The position numbers were made by a program, and so were the translations under genes. From Actinomycetota bacterium (GTDB lineage: Bacteria > Actinomycetota > Acidimicrobiia > Spongiisociales > ZC4RG35), in the NCBI GenBank assembly GCA_003388545.1, contig QQVI01000063.1, positions 1-34,919 of the forward strand: DNA of 34,919 nucleotides. The letters run 5' to 3'. Under the pieces are notes generated by a model, which made no database searches, was not told the DNA's origin, and worked only from the letters and a program-made list of their open reading frames with translations. Shown piece after piece: positions 24,809 through 33,039 of the stretch. Each line of letters begins with the position of its first letter. Positions within the stretch are counted from its first letter, which is position 1.

Positions 24809-26053
24809 ATGAAAAGGCTTCTGATACTGGGTTCCGGCACGGCCGGAACCATCATCGTGAACAAGCTTCACCGTCGTCTCCCTGAAGATTGGGAGATACA
24901 TGTCGTCGAGCCATCCCGCGAGCACCTATATCAACCCGGGCTGCTCTTCCTCCCGTTTGGCAGGATCGATCCCAGGAACCTCCACCGCGAAACGGAGGCG
25001 TTCCTACCCAAGGGGGTGACGCGGTGGACGGGGACCGTGCAACGGGTGGTTCCCGATGGGGACAAGGTCGAGCTGGAGGACGGGACCGTCATCGAGTACG
25101 ACCAACTGGTCATTGCCACAGGGACCACACCCAGACCGGACCAGACGCCGGGTATGACCGGCCCGGGATGGCGGGAGACGATCCACGACTTCTACACCTA
25201 CGAAGGTGCTTTGGCACTGTGGGAAGCATTGCGGAACTTCGAGGGAGGGCGGCTCGTCGTACACGTGAGCGAGATGCCGATCAAGTGCCCCGTCGCTCCT
25301 CTCGAGTTTGCATTTCTCGCCGACGACCACTTCAGGGAATTGGGCATCCGGGATGACGTGGACATTGTCTATGTCACCCCCTTGTCGGGTGCATTCACCA
25401 AGCCAGTGGCATCCCGGAGGCTCGGAGACATGCTCTCTCGTCGACGCATCGAACTGGAGACGGACTTCTACGTCGAGCGAATCGAGGACGGAGCCCTGTG
25501 GTCATATGACGAGAGAGAGGTCCCATTCGACCTCCTCGTCACCGTACCGGTCAACATGGGAGCCAAGTTCGTCGGTGAGTCGGGGCTCGGAGACGAGCTC
25601 GATTTCGTCAAAGTCGACCAGGGCACTTTCCTCGCCGAGGGATACGAGAACATCTTCGCAATAGGGGATGCGGCAGCGCTCCCAACCTCGAAGGCTGGTT
25701 CAGTCGCTCACTTTGCTGCGGACGTCTTCGTGGAGAACTTCCTCGAGCACATCGCAGGCCTGCCGATGACCCGACGGTTCGACGGCCATGCCAACTGCTT
25801 CGTCGAGGCAGGCGGCGGCAAGGCGTTGCTGATCGATTTCAACTACGACACCGAGCCGCTCCCGGGTAAGTATCCGCTTGCCAGCATTGGCCCGCTCTCT
25901 CTCCTCAAGGAGACCAGAGCGAATCACCTCGGGAAGCTCGCCTTCGAGAAGATCTATTGGAACGTTCTGCTACCGGGCAGACCGATGCCCGTGGCCAGTG
26001 AAATGTCAATGGCGGGGAAGATCCCCGCCGATCAGATAGGAGATGAACTATGA
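24809..26053 (+). CDS. Sulfide:quinone oxidoreductase-like flavoprotein
   Basis: 414 residues. FAD/NAD disulfide-reductase fold: first Rossmann motif LILGSGTAGTIIVNKL, acidic end of strand 2 (HVVEPSREH), LVIATGTTPRPDQTPG, and FAD-binding NIFAIGDAAALPTSKAGSVA. SQR signatures are the YQPGLLFLPFG segment and redox Cys160 (EMPIKCPVAP) with Cys330 (DGHANCF); classical SQRs use three cysteines, and the first is missing here. It oxidises sulfide, or a persulfide, and passes electrons to the quinone pool, attached to the inner face of the membrane; substrate is inferred from family. GAGG lies before ATG 24809. First gene of a coupled operon with DsrC- and DsrE2-like genes. Confidence 0.85.
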   Translation: MKRLLILGSGTAGTIIVNKLHRRLPEDWEIHVVEPSREHLYQPGLLFLPFGRIDPRNLHRETEAFLPKGVTRWTGTVQRVVPDGDKVELEDGTVIEYDQLVIATGTTPRPDQTPGMTGPGWRETIHDFYTYEGALALWEALRNFEGGRLVVHVSEMPIKCPVAPLEFAFLADDHFRELGIRDDVDIVYVTPLSGAFTKPVASRRLGDMLSRRRIELETDFYVERIEDGALWSYDEREVPFDLLVTVPVNMGAKFVGESGLGDELDFVKVDQGTFLAEGYENIFAIGDAAALPTSKAGSVAHFAADVFVENFLEHIAGLPMTRRFDGHANCFVEAGGGKALLIDFNYDTEPLPGKYPLASIGPLSLLKETRANHLGKLAFEKIYWNVLLPGRPMPVASEMSMAGKIPADQIGDEL

Positions 26054-26364
26054 GCGATGTATTGGTCGCCGGAACACAGATCACGTTGGACGACGAAGGA
26101 TTCCTGACCGATCCGTCTGAGTGGTCCCCGGATGTCGCTAGCGAGCTCGCGGCCAACATCGGCCTCGAGCTATCGGATGAGCACTGGGCTGCGATCAATT
26201 TCGCCCGGACCGACTTCGAGGAGAACGGCGAGACGCCGACTCTTCGGCGCATGGCTCAGGCCGGTGGCGTCTCTACCAAGGAGATGTTCCGTCTCTTCCC
26301 CAAGAAGCCGGCGAAGAAGATGGCCTACGTGGCCGGACTCCCCAAGCCGGTCGGCTGCGTCTGA
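26050..26364 (+). CDS. DsrC/TusE-like sulfur carrier with a single C-terminal cysteine
   Basis: 104 residues. Matches the DsrC/TusE/DsvC family along its length: ITLDDEGFLTDPSEWSPDVA, LSDEHWAAINFARTDFEENG, ETPTLRRMAQAGGVSTKEMF, RLFPKKPAKKMAYVAGLPKP, ending VGCV. The C-terminal arm carries CysA as Cys103, one residue before the end. The second cysteine (CysB) of true DsrC, eleven positions upstream, is Ala92 here, so it can hold a persulfide but not form the intramolecular trisulfide of DsrC in dissimilatory pathways. It overlaps the flavoprotein gene as ATGA (26050-26053). Confidence 0.87.
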   Translation: MSDVLVAGTQITLDDEGFLTDPSEWSPDVASELAANIGLELSDEHWAAINFARTDFEENGETPTLRRMAQAGGVSTKEMFRLFPKKPAKKMAYVAGLPKPVGCV

Positions 26365-26393
26365 ACTTCAAACTCGAGCAAGGAGAACATGAA

Positions 26394-26906
26394 ATGACCG
26401 CAACAATGTCGGACACGCTCCCGACCCCGGATCTCGACTCAGACGCCGAAGGTAGGAAGCTGGCCATCATTTGCTCCAAAGGGTCGTTGGACATGGCCTA
26501 CCCGGGCCTCGTTCTGGCGAACGCAGCTCTGGGTGAAGGCATCGAGACTCATCTCTTCTTCACCTTCTGGGGCTTCGACATCATCAACAAGGAGACGATG
26601 GACCATCTGCAGTTCACGCCACTCGGCAATCCGGCCACGCACATGCCACCGTCTCTGATGGGGCTGCCGGGCATGACGGCCTTCGCGACCCACATGATGA
26701 AGAAGCAGATGGAGGGTCTCGACATCCCAGATGTGCCGGAGTTCCTCGAGATGATCACCGACGCAGGTGGGCACCTCTGGGGCTGCCGGATGTCTGCCGA
26801 CATGCAGCATCTCGACGAGGACGATCTCTACGACCGAGTCGAGGGGATCATCTCCGCTGCTGACTTCATGGAGCTCTCGGAGGGTGCCCAGACGATATTC
26901 GTCTGA
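26394..26906 (+). CDS. DsrE2-like sulfurtransferase
   Basis: 170 residues of the DsrE/DsrF superfamily, DsrE2 type. KLAIICSKGSLDMAYPGLVL (Cys27), ANAALGEGIETHLFFTFWGF, PPSLMGLPGMTAFATHMMKK (a hydrophobic or amphipathic stretch), and GHLWGCRMSADMQHLDEDDL (Cys131), the usual C-terminal active cysteine. It probably exchanges persulfide with the DsrC-like protein and the flavoprotein. AAGGAG lies eight bases before ATG 26394; an ATG-AAA-TGA mini-frame just ahead overlaps the start. Third gene of the sulfur operon; it is convergent with the LLM oxidoreductase with only four bases between. Confidence 0.87.
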   Translation: MTATMSDTLPTPDLDSDAEGRKLAIICSKGSLDMAYPGLVLANAALGEGIETHLFFTFWGFDIINKETMDHLQFTPLGNPATHMPPSLMGLPGMTAFATHMMKKQMEGLDIPDVPEFLEMITDAGGHLWGCRMSADMQHLDEDDLYDRVEGIISAADFMELSEGAQTIFV

Positions 26907-28657: not shown

Positions 28658-29323
28658 ATGGCCAAACAGGTGATCGTCTTCGATGTCAATGAGACGCTTC
28701 TCGACCTCGCCGGGCTCGAGCCGCGCTTTTCCGAGCTACTGCCGGCCGGCATGATGGCCCTTTGGTTCTCCCGCATGCTCTTCAACTCTGCTGTAGCGAC
28801 GATGTCGGGGGTCTACCAGCCGTTTGACCAGCAGGGCATCGACGCTCTAGTCACAACCGGATTGGGCGCAGGGATCGAGATCTCAGAAGAAGAGGCGAGA
28901 TGGGTGGTGGACGGCATGCGAGACCTTCCACCGCACCCAGACGTCGAGCCGGCCCTGGAGGCCCTCCAGGACGAAGGCATCCGGATGGCCACTCTCACGA
29001 ACAGCTCGAGGTCCATGGTGAGGGACCAGATGGGCAACGCAGGCCTGGCCCGCTACTTCGAGAAGCTGCTGTCGGTCGAATCGGTCGGGGAATTCAAGCC
29101 TTCGCCGGCGGCATATCGCCATGCTGCGTCATCCCTGGCGGTAGGCATCTCCGAGATCCGCCTCGTCGCCGCTCACGCCTGGGACGTCACCGGAGCAATT
29201 CGGGCTGGCGCCCTGGCCGCCTTTGTCGAGCGGGGGAGAGCCCGCCTCGGGCCACTCTCGGAGAAACCGGACATCGTGGCGAGAGATCTCACCGGGATTG
29301 CCTCGTCGATTCTCGCTCACTGA
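28658..29323 (+). CDS. HAD-family (S)-2-haloacid dehalogenase-like protein
   Basis: 221 residues. Motif I IVFDVNETLLDL with nucleophile Asp9; cap domain of about 90 residues (LWFSRMLFNSAVATMSGVYQ); motif II LTNSSRSM; motif III Lys in VGEFKPSPAAYRHAA; motif IV LVAAHAWDVTGAIRAG. The DVNETLLD and AAHAWDV combinations match the type II haloacid dehalogenase subgroup, though many such enzymes have other substrates. AAGGA lies nine bases before the ATG. Confidence 0.88.
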   Translation: MAKQVIVFDVNETLLDLAGLEPRFSELLPAGMMALWFSRMLFNSAVATMSGVYQPFDQQGIDALVTTGLGAGIEISEEEARWVVDGMRDLPPHPDVEPALEALQDEGIRMATLTNSSRSMVRDQMGNAGLARYFEKLLSVESVGEFKPSPAAYRHAASSLAVGISEIRLVAAHAWDVTGAIRAGALAAFVERGRARLGPLSEKPDIVARDLTGIASSILAH

Positions 29324-29379
29324 CCAGCGTCGCCTCATCGCCGACTTGGAATGAGCTGCAGAATGGCCAAGATGCAGGC

Positions 29380-29835
29380 ATGACCACGAGCAACAGGGTC
29401 GACCCGGCGTGGATCGAGCGAGTCCGGTCCGAGTACGGGCATTGCTTCGGCTGCGGCCGTGACAACCCGATGGGACTGAAAGTCGACGGGTTTGAACGAG
29501 ATGGAAACACAGTCCTTGCGAGCTTCACACCACGTCCTGAGTACGGCGGATTCCATGGGATTCTCCACGGTGGGATTCTCGCCACGGCGATGGATGAGAT
29601 CCTCGGTTGGACGACCATTTTGGTTGCCGGGCAGATGGCGGTGACCGCAACACTGGATATCAAGTATCGAAAACCGGCACCTCCAACCGCTACCTATGAG
29701 CTGAAGGGAACCTTGGTCGAGCGACGAGGCCGTCGGCTACTTGTCGAAGCAGCGTGCTCGACGGCTACGGATGTCATCGCCGAGGCGTCAGGCTTGTTTC
29801 TCGCCACGGGACCCATAGAAGAGGTCGGCGTTTGA
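29380..29835 (+). CDS. Hotdog-fold thioesterase (PaaI-like)
   Basis: 151 residues from ATG 29380. HCFGCGRDNPMGLKVDGFER, then GGFHGILHGGILATAMDEIL with the HGGxxxTxxDE catalytic helix, TATLDIKYRKPAPPTATYEL and VERRGRRLLVEAACSTATDV. Such enzymes cleave acyl-CoA thioesters; the acyl group is not known. The C-x-x-C-G-x-x-N-P-x-G-L motif at the start is a common variant of the family. The stop overlaps the start of aceK as TTGA (29832-29835), so the two are translated together. Confidence 0.87.
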   Translation: MTTSNRVDPAWIERVRSEYGHCFGCGRDNPMGLKVDGFERDGNTVLASFTPRPEYGGFHGILHGGILATAMDEILGWTTILVAGQMAVTATLDIKYRKPAPPTATYELKGTLVERRGRRLLVEAACSTATDVIAEASGLFLATGPIEEVGV

Positions 29836-31592
29836 GCGGTGCGATCACGCAACTCTCGGACAGCCGACTGTCGAGCCTGGCGGCTGGGCGGATACTCGAT
29901 GGGTTCTCCGACTACATGGTGAGTTTCCGCGCCATCAATCAAAGGGCTCCGATCAGGTTCGCGGAGATGGACTGGGTGGGCATGCAAGCAGATGCCGTTG
30001 AACGCCTCGATCTCTACGCCGGAACGGTCGCTGACGTCATTCGCTCCATCGAGTCGCTGCTTGGGGAACGGAGCGACGACCGCACCCTGTGGGTTGCCAT
30101 CAAGGCGGTCTTTTCGTCTCTGATCTCCGATCGTCAGGATTGGGAGCTTGCCGAGACCTTCTTCAACTCCATAACGCGCAAGGTGTTCACGACTGTTGGC
30201 GTCGACTCGGCCGTGGAATTCGTCGACACCGATTTCGACAGCCCTCCAAGTCCTTCCCGCGAGCCGGTGTACGTCACGTTCCAGAAGAGAGAGTCTCTGA
30301 ACGAACTGGTGGCCGGCATCCTCGAGGGCGCGAGTGGAGGCATCGAGTTTGCTGACCTCGATAGCAACGCAAGGGAGGTGGCAAGCCGGATCGAGTCGAG
30401 GTTGAGTGCGGCGGGCGGGCTGCCTGTGGTCGACCGGGCAGAGATCGTTCGTACCCTCTTCTACCGGGGGCAGGCTGCGTACATCGTCGGGCTTCTCTAC
30501 TCGGGTTCGATCCAGGTGCCGTTGGTGGTCGCTCTCCGCAATGGAGATGGAGGGGCGGCCGTCGATGCGGTGCTTCTCACCGAGAACGAAGTGTCGATTC
30601 TCTTCAGCTTCACCCGCTCCTACTTCCATGTCGATCTGGCGCGGCCCTATGACCTCGTCAGGTTCCTCCGTCGGCTCATGCCCCGGAAGCGAGTGGCCGA
30701 GTTGTACATCTCCATCGGTCACAACAAACACGGGAAGACCGAGCTATATCGCGACCTCCTGCGCCACCTCCAGTCGACCGACGAGAGGTTTGAGCACGCC
30801 CGCGGCACGCGAGGGCTGGTGATGATCGTCTTCACGATGCCTGGCTACAACGACGTGTTCAAGGTGATACGTGACCGTTTCCCCCCTCCGAAGCGGACGA
30901 CGAGGCGGGCCGTCATGGCCAAATACCGCATGGTGTTCCAGCACGACCGGGCAGGCCGCCTCATGGACGTTCAGGACTTCCAGCACCTCAAGTTCAACAA
31001 GTCGCGCTTCAGCGATGAGTTGCTCGAGGAACTCCTCGATGAGGCCGGCAGCACAGTGACCCTCGAAGGGGATCACGTGATCGTGAAGCATGTCTACGTA
31101 GAGCGCAGAATCGTTCCGCTCGACCTGTACGTGAGAGAGGCTGTCCCGTCGGCAGCCGCAAACGCCGTGGTCGACTACGGGCAAGCAATCAAAGACCTCG
31201 CCTCGACGAACATCTTTCCTGGGGACCTGCTCATGAAGAACTTCGGGGTCACCAGGCACGGTCGGGTCGTCTTCTATGACTACGACGAGCTGTCACCACT
31301 GACCGAGGTCAAGTTCCGGAGGATCCCCGAGCCACGGGACGACTTCGACGCGCTGTCGGATCAGCCGTTCTACGCAGTCGGCGATCGTGATGTGTTTCCC
31401 GAGGAGCACAGCAACTTCCTCGGGTTGGGGCCACGTCTCCGAAAGCTCTTTGAGGAGACCCATGGAGACCTGTTCGAGGTCGAGCCATGGCTGAAGATTC
31501 AGAATCGAATCAGAGCCGGGGAGATGATCGAGGTGTTCCCGTACTCAGAAGAGGCGCGCCTGGCCGACGCTGTCGGGTTCCGCGGGTGGTGA
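29832..31592 (+). CDS. aceK: Isocitrate dehydrogenase kinase/phosphatase
   Basis: 586 residues from TTG 29832 (LSGAITQLSDSRLSSLAAGR), chosen because it overlaps the thioesterase stop and the next residues align with the start of Escherichia coli AceK (578 residues). Switches isocitrate dehydrogenase on and off to send carbon to the TCA cycle or the glyoxylate shunt. Hallmarks: RPYDLVRFLRRLMPRKRVAE, LYISIGHNKHGKTELYRDLL, ATP loop HARGTRGLVMIVFTMPGYND, Lys344 in FKVIRDRFPPPK, Asp465 in GDLLMKNFGVTRHGRVVFYD and Asp483 in the following YDYDE. These correspond to E. coli Lys336, Asp457 and Asp475 with a constant offset of eight, so all three sites look intact. Unusual outside Proteobacteria. Confidence 0.92.
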   Translation: MSGAITQLSDSRLSSLAAGRILDGFSDYMVSFRAINQRAPIRFAEMDWVGMQADAVERLDLYAGTVADVIRSIESLLGERSDDRTLWVAIKAVFSSLISDRQDWELAETFFNSITRKVFTTVGVDSAVEFVDTDFDSPPSPSREPVYVTFQKRESLNELVAGILEGASGGIEFADLDSNAREVASRIESRLSAAGGLPVVDRAEIVRTLFYRGQAAYIVGLLYSGSIQVPLVVALRNGDGGAAVDAVLLTENEVSILFSFTRSYFHVDLARPYDLVRFLRRLMPRKRVAELYISIGHNKHGKTELYRDLLRHLQSTDERFEHARGTRGLVMIVFTMPGYNDVFKVIRDRFPPPKRTTRRAVMAKYRMVFQHDRAGRLMDVQDFQHLKFNKSRFSDELLEELLDEAGSTVTLEGDHVIVKHVYVERRIVPLDLYVREAVPSAAANAVVDYGQAIKDLASTNIFPGDLLMKNFGVTRHGRVVFYDYDELSPLTEVKFRRIPEPRDDFDALSDQPFYAVGDRDVFPEEHSNFLGLGPRLRKLFEETHGDLFEVEPWLKIQNRIRAGEMIEVFPYSEEARLADAVGFRGW

Positions 31593-31596
31593 AGTC

Positions 31597-33039
31597 TTGA
31601 GCCAGGCAATGGCTCGAGTGGTGGTCTTCACCACTTCGGCATCCGTGCTGATCATCGAGATACTCGCGGGCCGTTTGCTCGCGCCCTATCTCGGCGTCAG
31701 CCTCGAAGTGTTCACCGGGATCATTGGGGTGATCCTGGCGGGCATTTCGATTGGTGCCTGGCTAGGGGGACGAGCCGCAGACCGACTCGATCCGACCCGC
31801 CTGCCCGGGCCTCTGATGGTGGCTGGAGGGCTATCCGTCATTCTCAGCCCCGTGATAATCGACTTCTTCGGACCCGGTGTCGGCATCAACCCGCTGTCGA
31901 TTGTCTTTCTGGCAACGGTGGGCTTCGTCGTTCCCGCGGCTTTGTTGTCTGCCGTCTCCCCGATAGTCGTCAAGATTCGCCTCGCCTCGTTGGACAACAC
32001 CGGATCGGTGGTTGGCTCCTACTCGGCGATAGGCACGGCCGGTGCCATTTTCGGTACATTCGTCACCGGCTTCGTCCTGATCGCCGCGTTTCCAACCCGT
32101 CCCATAGTTGCCGGACTCGGGCTGCTTCTCTCTCTTGGCGGCGCATCGCTGATGATCGGACGGGGCCGATGGGTCCCGCTGGCGGTGCTACTTGTCGCCG
32201 TCGGCTCCGCCACGGCCCTGGCCTCTTCCGACGGGCCGTGCCAATACGAGACCACCTATCACTGCGCCGATGTGGTGGTGGACCCGGATAGGCCCACGGG
32301 ACGCCTGCTCATCCTCGACCGCGGCCACAACAGCTATGTCGACCTGGAAGACCCGACCTATCTGGACTTCAGATACGCCCGGGTAATGGCGGACGTGATC
32401 GATGCCAACTTCGCCTCCGGCCCTCTGAGTGTGCTCTCGATCGGCGGGGGTGGTTTCACGTTTCCCCAGTACTTGGAGGCGACGAGGCCCGGCACCGACC
32501 ATGTCGTGCTCGAGATAGATCGTCTGCTCGTCGACATCGGTCGGTCGGAGCTCGGATTCGAAGACGAGGCCGAAGTCGTCATCGCAGACGCACGGCAGTC
32601 AATCCAGGATGTGCCGCCGGCCACGATCGACCTGGTCATCGGTGATGCCTTCAGCGGGCTGACCGTTCCCTGGCACCTGACGACAGCGGAGTTCGTTTCG
32701 ATTGTCGACAGCCGGATGGCGCCCACGGGCCTCTACTTGATCAATGTCATCGATTACGGCGACCTCGACTTCGCAATGTCCACAGTCAAGACTTTCGAAG
32801 CGGTATTTGATCACGTCGCCGTGATCGCTCCGCCGTCGTACCTGAGCGGCGAGGCGGGAGGAAACTTCGTCATCGTCGGATCGCAAGCCGCATTGGATAC
32901 CCCGGCGTTGATACGGGCCATCGCGGAACGCGGTGGAAGCGAGGCCGTCCTGACTGGCGCCGATCTCGAATCCTTCACGACAGGAGGCCTCGTGCTTCGG
33001 GACGACTTCGCCCCTGTGGACCAGATGATCGATCGGTGA
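31597..33039 (+). CDS. Fused membrane/spermidine synthase-like protein
   Basis: 480 residues from TTG 31597; ATG 31609 is an alternative. N-terminal membrane half with about six to seven helices (FTTSASVLIIEILAGRLLAP, GIIGVILAGISIGAWLGGRA, VFLATVGFVVPAALLSAVSP, GSYSAIGTAGAIFGTFVTGF). C-terminal soluble half is a spermidine synthase-like methyltransferase fold: VLSIGGGGFTFPQYLEATRP, DHVVLEIDRLLVDIGR, VVIADARQSIQDVPPATIDL and VIGDAFSGLTVPWHLTTAEF. Fused proteins of this kind are widespread; a true polyamine synthase activity is not proven. It begins four bases after the aceK stop, hence one operon. Confidence 0.85.
   Translation: MSQAMARVVVFTTSASVLIIEILAGRLLAPYLGVSLEVFTGIIGVILAGISIGAWLGGRAADRLDPTRLPGPLMVAGGLSVILSPVIIDFFGPGVGINPLSIVFLATVGFVVPAALLSAVSPIVVKIRLASLDNTGSVVGSYSAIGTAGAIFGTFVTGFVLIAAFPTRPIVAGLGLLLSLGGASLMIGRGRWVPLAVLLVAVGSATALASSDGPCQYETTYHCADVVVDPDRPTGRLLILDRGHNSYVDLEDPTYLDFRYARVMADVIDANFASGPLSVLSIGGGGFTFPQYLEATRPGTDHVVLEIDRLLVDIGRSELGFEDEAEVVIADARQSIQDVPPATIDLVIGDAFSGLTVPWHLTTAEFVSIVDSRMAPTGLYLINVIDYGDLDFAMSTVKTFEAVFDHVAVIAPPSYLSGEAGGNFVIVGSQAALDTPALIRAIAERGGSEAVLTGADLESFTTGGLVLRDDFAPVDQMIDR

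Follow-up and report, generated by a model that had tools for sequence, protein, structure and literature searches.

The analysed window is the whole of contig C7 of the host assembly (34,919 nucleotides) and carries the only AceK encoded in that assembly. Translation of the open reading frame gave a protein of 586 residues in which the regulatory and kinase domains of AceK follow one another, both matched in full (Table 1). The NCBIfam equivalog model NF002804 scored 678 bits, above its curated cut-off of 488 bits, and was covered from position 6 to 576 of 582. Chains of the solved E. coli AceK structures (PDB 3eps and 3lc6) matched residues 13-578 with an E-value of ~1e-122, and alignment to E. 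coli AceK (PDB 3EPS, 3LC6, 3LCB) ran end to end across the shared two-domain architecture, with 212 of 568 aligned positions identical (37%). By these comparisons the match is far beyond chance, and the AceK fold is in no doubt because homology to solved AceK structures extends over the full length.

Table 1 Features at the aceK locus, in window coordinates.
Feature	Position	Strand	Evidence
Hot-dog (4HBT) thioesterase-like gene, stop overlapping the aceK start	29380-29835	+	PF03061 (longer frame 28900-29835)
aceK, bifunctional isocitrate dehydrogenase kinase/phosphatase, 586 aa, TTG start	29832-31592	+	NF002804, PF20423 + PF06315, E. coli AceK structures, catalytic residues
AceK regulatory domain, residues 19-316	29886-30779	+	PF20423, 301 bits
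AceK kinase/phosphatase domain, residues 318-572	30783-31547	+	PF06315, 362-364 bits
Fused MFS/spermidine synthase, downstream of aceK	31597-33039	+	NF037959, 308 bits

Residue by residue, Lys344, Asp465 and Asp483 of the window protein correspond to E. coli Lys336, Asp457 and Asp475, and Asp379, Lys469, Asn470, Asp485 and Glu486 correspond to Asp371, Lys461, Asn462, Asp477 and Glu478, all at a constant offset of 8. Every catalytic or metal-binding residue tested in this alignment was conserved (for the roles of the catalytic residues, Asp371 excepted, see PMC3747045 and PMC6591243). One difference from the E. coli enzyme is Leu329 in place of Met321, a change found in 31 of 48 actinobacterial AceKs. 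Judged by its sequence, the window protein is thus an ordinary, complete and genuine AceK. The initial annotation of this DNA, which had described a full-length AceK with Lys344, Asp465 and Asp483 at a constant offset from the E. coli sites in an actinobacterium-like genome, was borne out on each of these points.

Start codon and neighbouring genes

The TTG start assigned to aceK in the initial annotation shares bases with the TGA codon that ends the thioesterase gene. It is a plausible start because GAAGAGG lies directly 5' of it and the sole other in-frame start farther upstream, GTG 29754, falls within the thioesterase gene. The exact position is tentative, as starts in relatives scatter by ~10 codons or less to either side. 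The stop/start overlap with the thioesterase gene, described initially as coupling, is real in the window, but the thioesterase was absent at every other AceK locus examined in a conservation search, and no relative of the MFS/spermidine synthase was found beside other AceK genes. Functional coupling of aceK to the thioesterase, to the HAD hydrolase gene upstream or to the spermidine synthase was rejected, as none of these recurs beside other AceK genes, and the linkage therefore holds no functional information. Elsewhere in the window (24809-26906), a type III sulfide:quinone reductase gene adjoins a DsrE2-like sulfur carrier gene; a selenoprotein-subtype NCBIfam model matches the reductase, yet no TGA interrupts its reading frame.

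Probable target enzyme and glyoxylate shunt in the host genome

The host assembly comprises 358 contigs (2.46 Mb; 93.17% complete, 2.08% estimated contamination). The initial annotation had remarked that no icd or glyoxylate shunt gene lies near aceK. This holds for the 35-kb contig, on which icd, aceA and aceB were not found, but it is misleading for the organism: a search of the same genome, which that annotation had proposed, recovered all three genes. Contig C19 encodes an E. coli-type prokaryotic NADP-dependent isocitrate dehydrogenase (IDH; L119) that scored 650 bits against NF005425 and also passed TIGR00183. It is 62% identical to E. coli IDH, the subfamily I NADP-IDH that serves as AceK substrate, and carries TTPVGGGIRSLNVALRQ, which equals E. 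coli residues 104-120 exactly, Ser113 included, together with the NADP residues KYVYR. Monomeric IDH (PF03971) gave no match in the host genome or in 40 relatives and was discarded as an alternative target.

Contig C121 carries aceB followed after 3 bases by aceA, encoding malate synthase A (TIGR01344, 750 bits) and isocitrate lyase (NF011645, 772 bits, KKCGH motif). The adjacency of aceB and aceA is that of the E. coli aceBAK operon. Unlike in E. coli, the host aceK does not lie directly 3' of aceA but on a separate contig (C7), outside the operon and with its TTG start over a thioesterase stop.

Distribution, linkage and co-occurrence of AceK

Near relatives carried AceK in 25 of 41 genomes, belonging to 17 of 28 genera, and in class Acidimicrobiia it was detected in 56 of 296 genomes (33 of 148 genera). 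Phylum-wide sampling recovered it in 10 of 396 genomes, one of the ten with a weak fragment only, and 26 of 200 Pseudomonadota genomes carried it. The named relatives came from Acidimicrobiia, followed by Chloroflexota, Verrucomicrobiota, Planctomycetota and others. This distribution contradicts one published study, in which AceK was stated to be confined to Gram-negative bacteria; a literature search turned up no publication that deals with this enzyme in Acidimicrobiia or Chloroflexota. Gram-negatives are thus not the only bacteria with this switch, the best known of the phosphorylation switches in bacterial metabolism.

Several genomes link aceK to its presumptive partners. Within the order of the host, a single-contig genome (G367) has the operon aceB-aceA-aceK, as in E. 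coli, and another genome (G376) has the gene order aceA-aceK-aceB. In G213, icd and aceK are divergent. Isocitrate lyase occurred in 61 of the 64 actinobacterial genomes with AceK vs 13 of 39 without it (Fisher p ~1e-11, kinship ignored), a comparison in which two weak methylisocitrate-lyase-like matches were scored absent and genomes lacking AceK had not been sampled at random. The three AceK-bearing genomes without isocitrate lyase were all <90% complete. One actinobacterial order hence combines widespread AceK with a matching IDH type and a full shunt, and in some genomes with aceBAK or icd-aceK clusters.

Open frames of 916-1026 aa at four loci (L165, L169, L172 and L174) were considered as N-terminal AceK fusions and rejected, as they contained no extra Pfam domain. 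At L165, L169 and L172 the AceK frames are open for ~340-370 residues upstream, probably as GC-rich open sequence rather than as fusions, and at L174 the N-terminal extension is antisense to icd.

The AceK-recognition segment of the IDH

The segment of E. coli IDH recognized by AceK lies at residues 239-275 and differs in length among IDH classes, and a Bacillus-type helical hairpin in IDH prevents AceK action (PMC3521221). Actinobacterial isocitrate dehydrogenases (ICDs) have been argued to be without AceK-interacting elements (PMC4999502). In the host IDH the segment measures 33 residues vs 37 in E. coli, and its sequence is divergent. The same length was found in 30 of 30 genomes of the order with an aligned IDH (the host among them), AceK present or absent. 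The form of the IDH was therefore discarded as a marker of AceK presence, since relatives lacking AceK have the same IDH.

G189 has icd immediately 5' of aceK, and the encoded IDH has a near-identical 33-residue segment, while in Gemmatimonadota an icd adjoining aceK encodes a segment of 32 residues. Judged by this gene adjacency, the 33-residue segment appears compatible with an AceK partnership. It is conceivable, though we hold it with some doubt, that the AceK of the order controls a short-segment IDH through contacts unlike those of the E. coli complex. If so, control by IDH phosphorylation would be an old trait outside Gram-negatives with a co-evolved recognition surface. The short segment offers a natural test of how AceK locates its substrate. 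Two further segment lengths were seen at icd-aceK loci: in a Chloroflexota genome (Anaerolineales, L047), icd directly upstream of aceK encodes a segment of 50 residues, roughly as long as the Bacillus-type helical hairpin, and the icd divergent from aceK in G213 (L174) has an E. coli-like 37-residue segment.

Proposed role of AceK

We infer the activity, substrate and physiological role of the window AceK from sequence. Very probably it is a functional acidimicrobial AceK acting on the organism's own NADP-IDH at the glyoxylate branch point, which is the best explanation given AceK biochemistry, the intact kinase/phosphatase and target loop, the complete shunt and the way aceK clusters with aceBA or icd in related genomes; the co-occurrence with isocitrate lyase lends further support. 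AceK would phosphorylate the C19 IDH at the serine that matches Ser113 of E. coli. When cells grow on acetate or fatty acids, IDH inactivated in this way would let isocitrate pass into the shunt, whose genes are the aceB-aceA pair of C121. Once the TCA cycle is needed, AceK would dephosphorylate the IDH. Counterpoints are that the host aceK adjoins neither aceBA nor icd, that the recognition segment of the host IDH is short, that actinobacterial ICDs have been argued to be without AceK-interacting elements (PMC4999502) and that relatives lacking AceK share this IDH form. Control of mycobacterial ICD by glyoxylate (PMC4999502) acts at this branch point too, in bacteria of the same phylum. Mycobacteria, however, have another ICD type and no AceK (PMC4999502), whereas the acidimicrobial order has an E. 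coli-type IDH, and AceK in many of its members.

The initial annotation had also entertained that AceK regulates a different enzyme. Such a substrate, or recognition of IDH by way of another surface, could be argued from the 33-residue segment, which is one of several length-variable types in the IDH subfamily (PMC3521221), and from the position of aceK beside a thioesterase gene, apart from aceBA and icd. This reading is nevertheless unlikely, as the Ser113 loop of the host IDH is intact, all tested catalytic residues of AceK are conserved, and segments of 33 and 32 residues occur in the IDHs encoded beside aceK in G189 and in Gemmatimonadota. A different substrate is moreover unnecessary because the host has an E. 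coli-type IDH with the Ser113 loop as well as aceBA, and no monomeric IDH. The history of the gene admits rival accounts of its own. Recent horizontal transfer from Proteobacteria would fit the rarity of AceK phylum-wide and the AceK of G213 (a single-contig genome), which lies inside the main Pseudomonadota clade. The window AceK, however, is 61-68% identical to its closest Acidimicrobiia counterparts vs 37% to that of E. coli, AceK occurs in many genera of the order, and aceK matches neighbouring genes on the contig in composition (GC 0.606, GC3 0.782). The careful tree placed the window AceK within Acidimicrobiia sets of 4 (100/97) and 8 sequences (100/100), and within a wider set of 32 (95/90) that also takes in two sequences from other parts of the phylum and a single one from Myxococcota. 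This is a broad actinobacterial clade, the placement that the initial annotation had said would argue against recent transfer; trees and composition together rule out a recent proteobacterial origin, which we consider highly improbable. An assembly or binning artefact, in which a proteobacterial or chloroflexotal contig entered an actinobacterial metagenome-assembled genome (MAG), could be argued from the number of contigs and the estimated contamination of the draft. It is scarcely credible, given that independent Acidimicrobiia MAGs are the source of all the nearest AceKs, that a single-contig genome with aceBAK is among the relatives and that the composition of aceK is that of the other genes of C7.

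Transfer within the order has better grounds, and here the initial suggestion that aceK may have been transferred finds support. A single clade for all Acidimicrobiia AceKs was rejected (p-AU 0.00095) because family f2 and families f16/f100 form separate AceK lineages within the class, and a single origin of these AceKs was dismissed on the same test. The host lies deep within family f1 in a tree of eno, pat, ppx and idh, its AceK groups with those of family f5 (100/100), and a single clade for all f1 AceKs was rejected as well (p-AU 0.0012). In many members of the order, eno, ppx and tRNA-Leu(UAA) precede aceK, and a GNAT-acyl-CoA-ligase (Pat-like) gene often comes next. The eno-ppx-tRNA-Leu-pat site is without aceK in the host (G000) and in G006 and G802, and a search of the host's vacant ppx-pat interval at E-values up to 10 detected no AceK remnant. 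AceK has long been present in the order, with its ancestral site between ppx/tRNA-Leu and pat, and the window copy was probably exchanged within the order, as it lies off this site and groups with another family. That the ancestral copy was lost and an f5-like copy gained at a new site is a reasonably likely course of events. Old duplication with differential loss could yield the same pattern, and the host tree draws on four genes, of which three share one locus; of the two readings, exchange inside the order is the simpler. It concerns history only and is compatible with control of IDH by AceK.

The site itself showed further features. The order eno - ppx/gppA - tRNA-Leu(UAA) - aceK - GNAT+acyl-CoA ligase (Pat-like protein acetyltransferase) was seen at L155, L016, L170, L150 and others, with the host locus at L247. 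As aceK comes and goes right behind the tRNA gene, this may be an insertion site, and the Pat-like neighbour looks like another central-metabolism regulator. The AceK of G213 (L174, contig C1), a genome from another actinobacterial family, likely represents a separate transfer from Proteobacteria.
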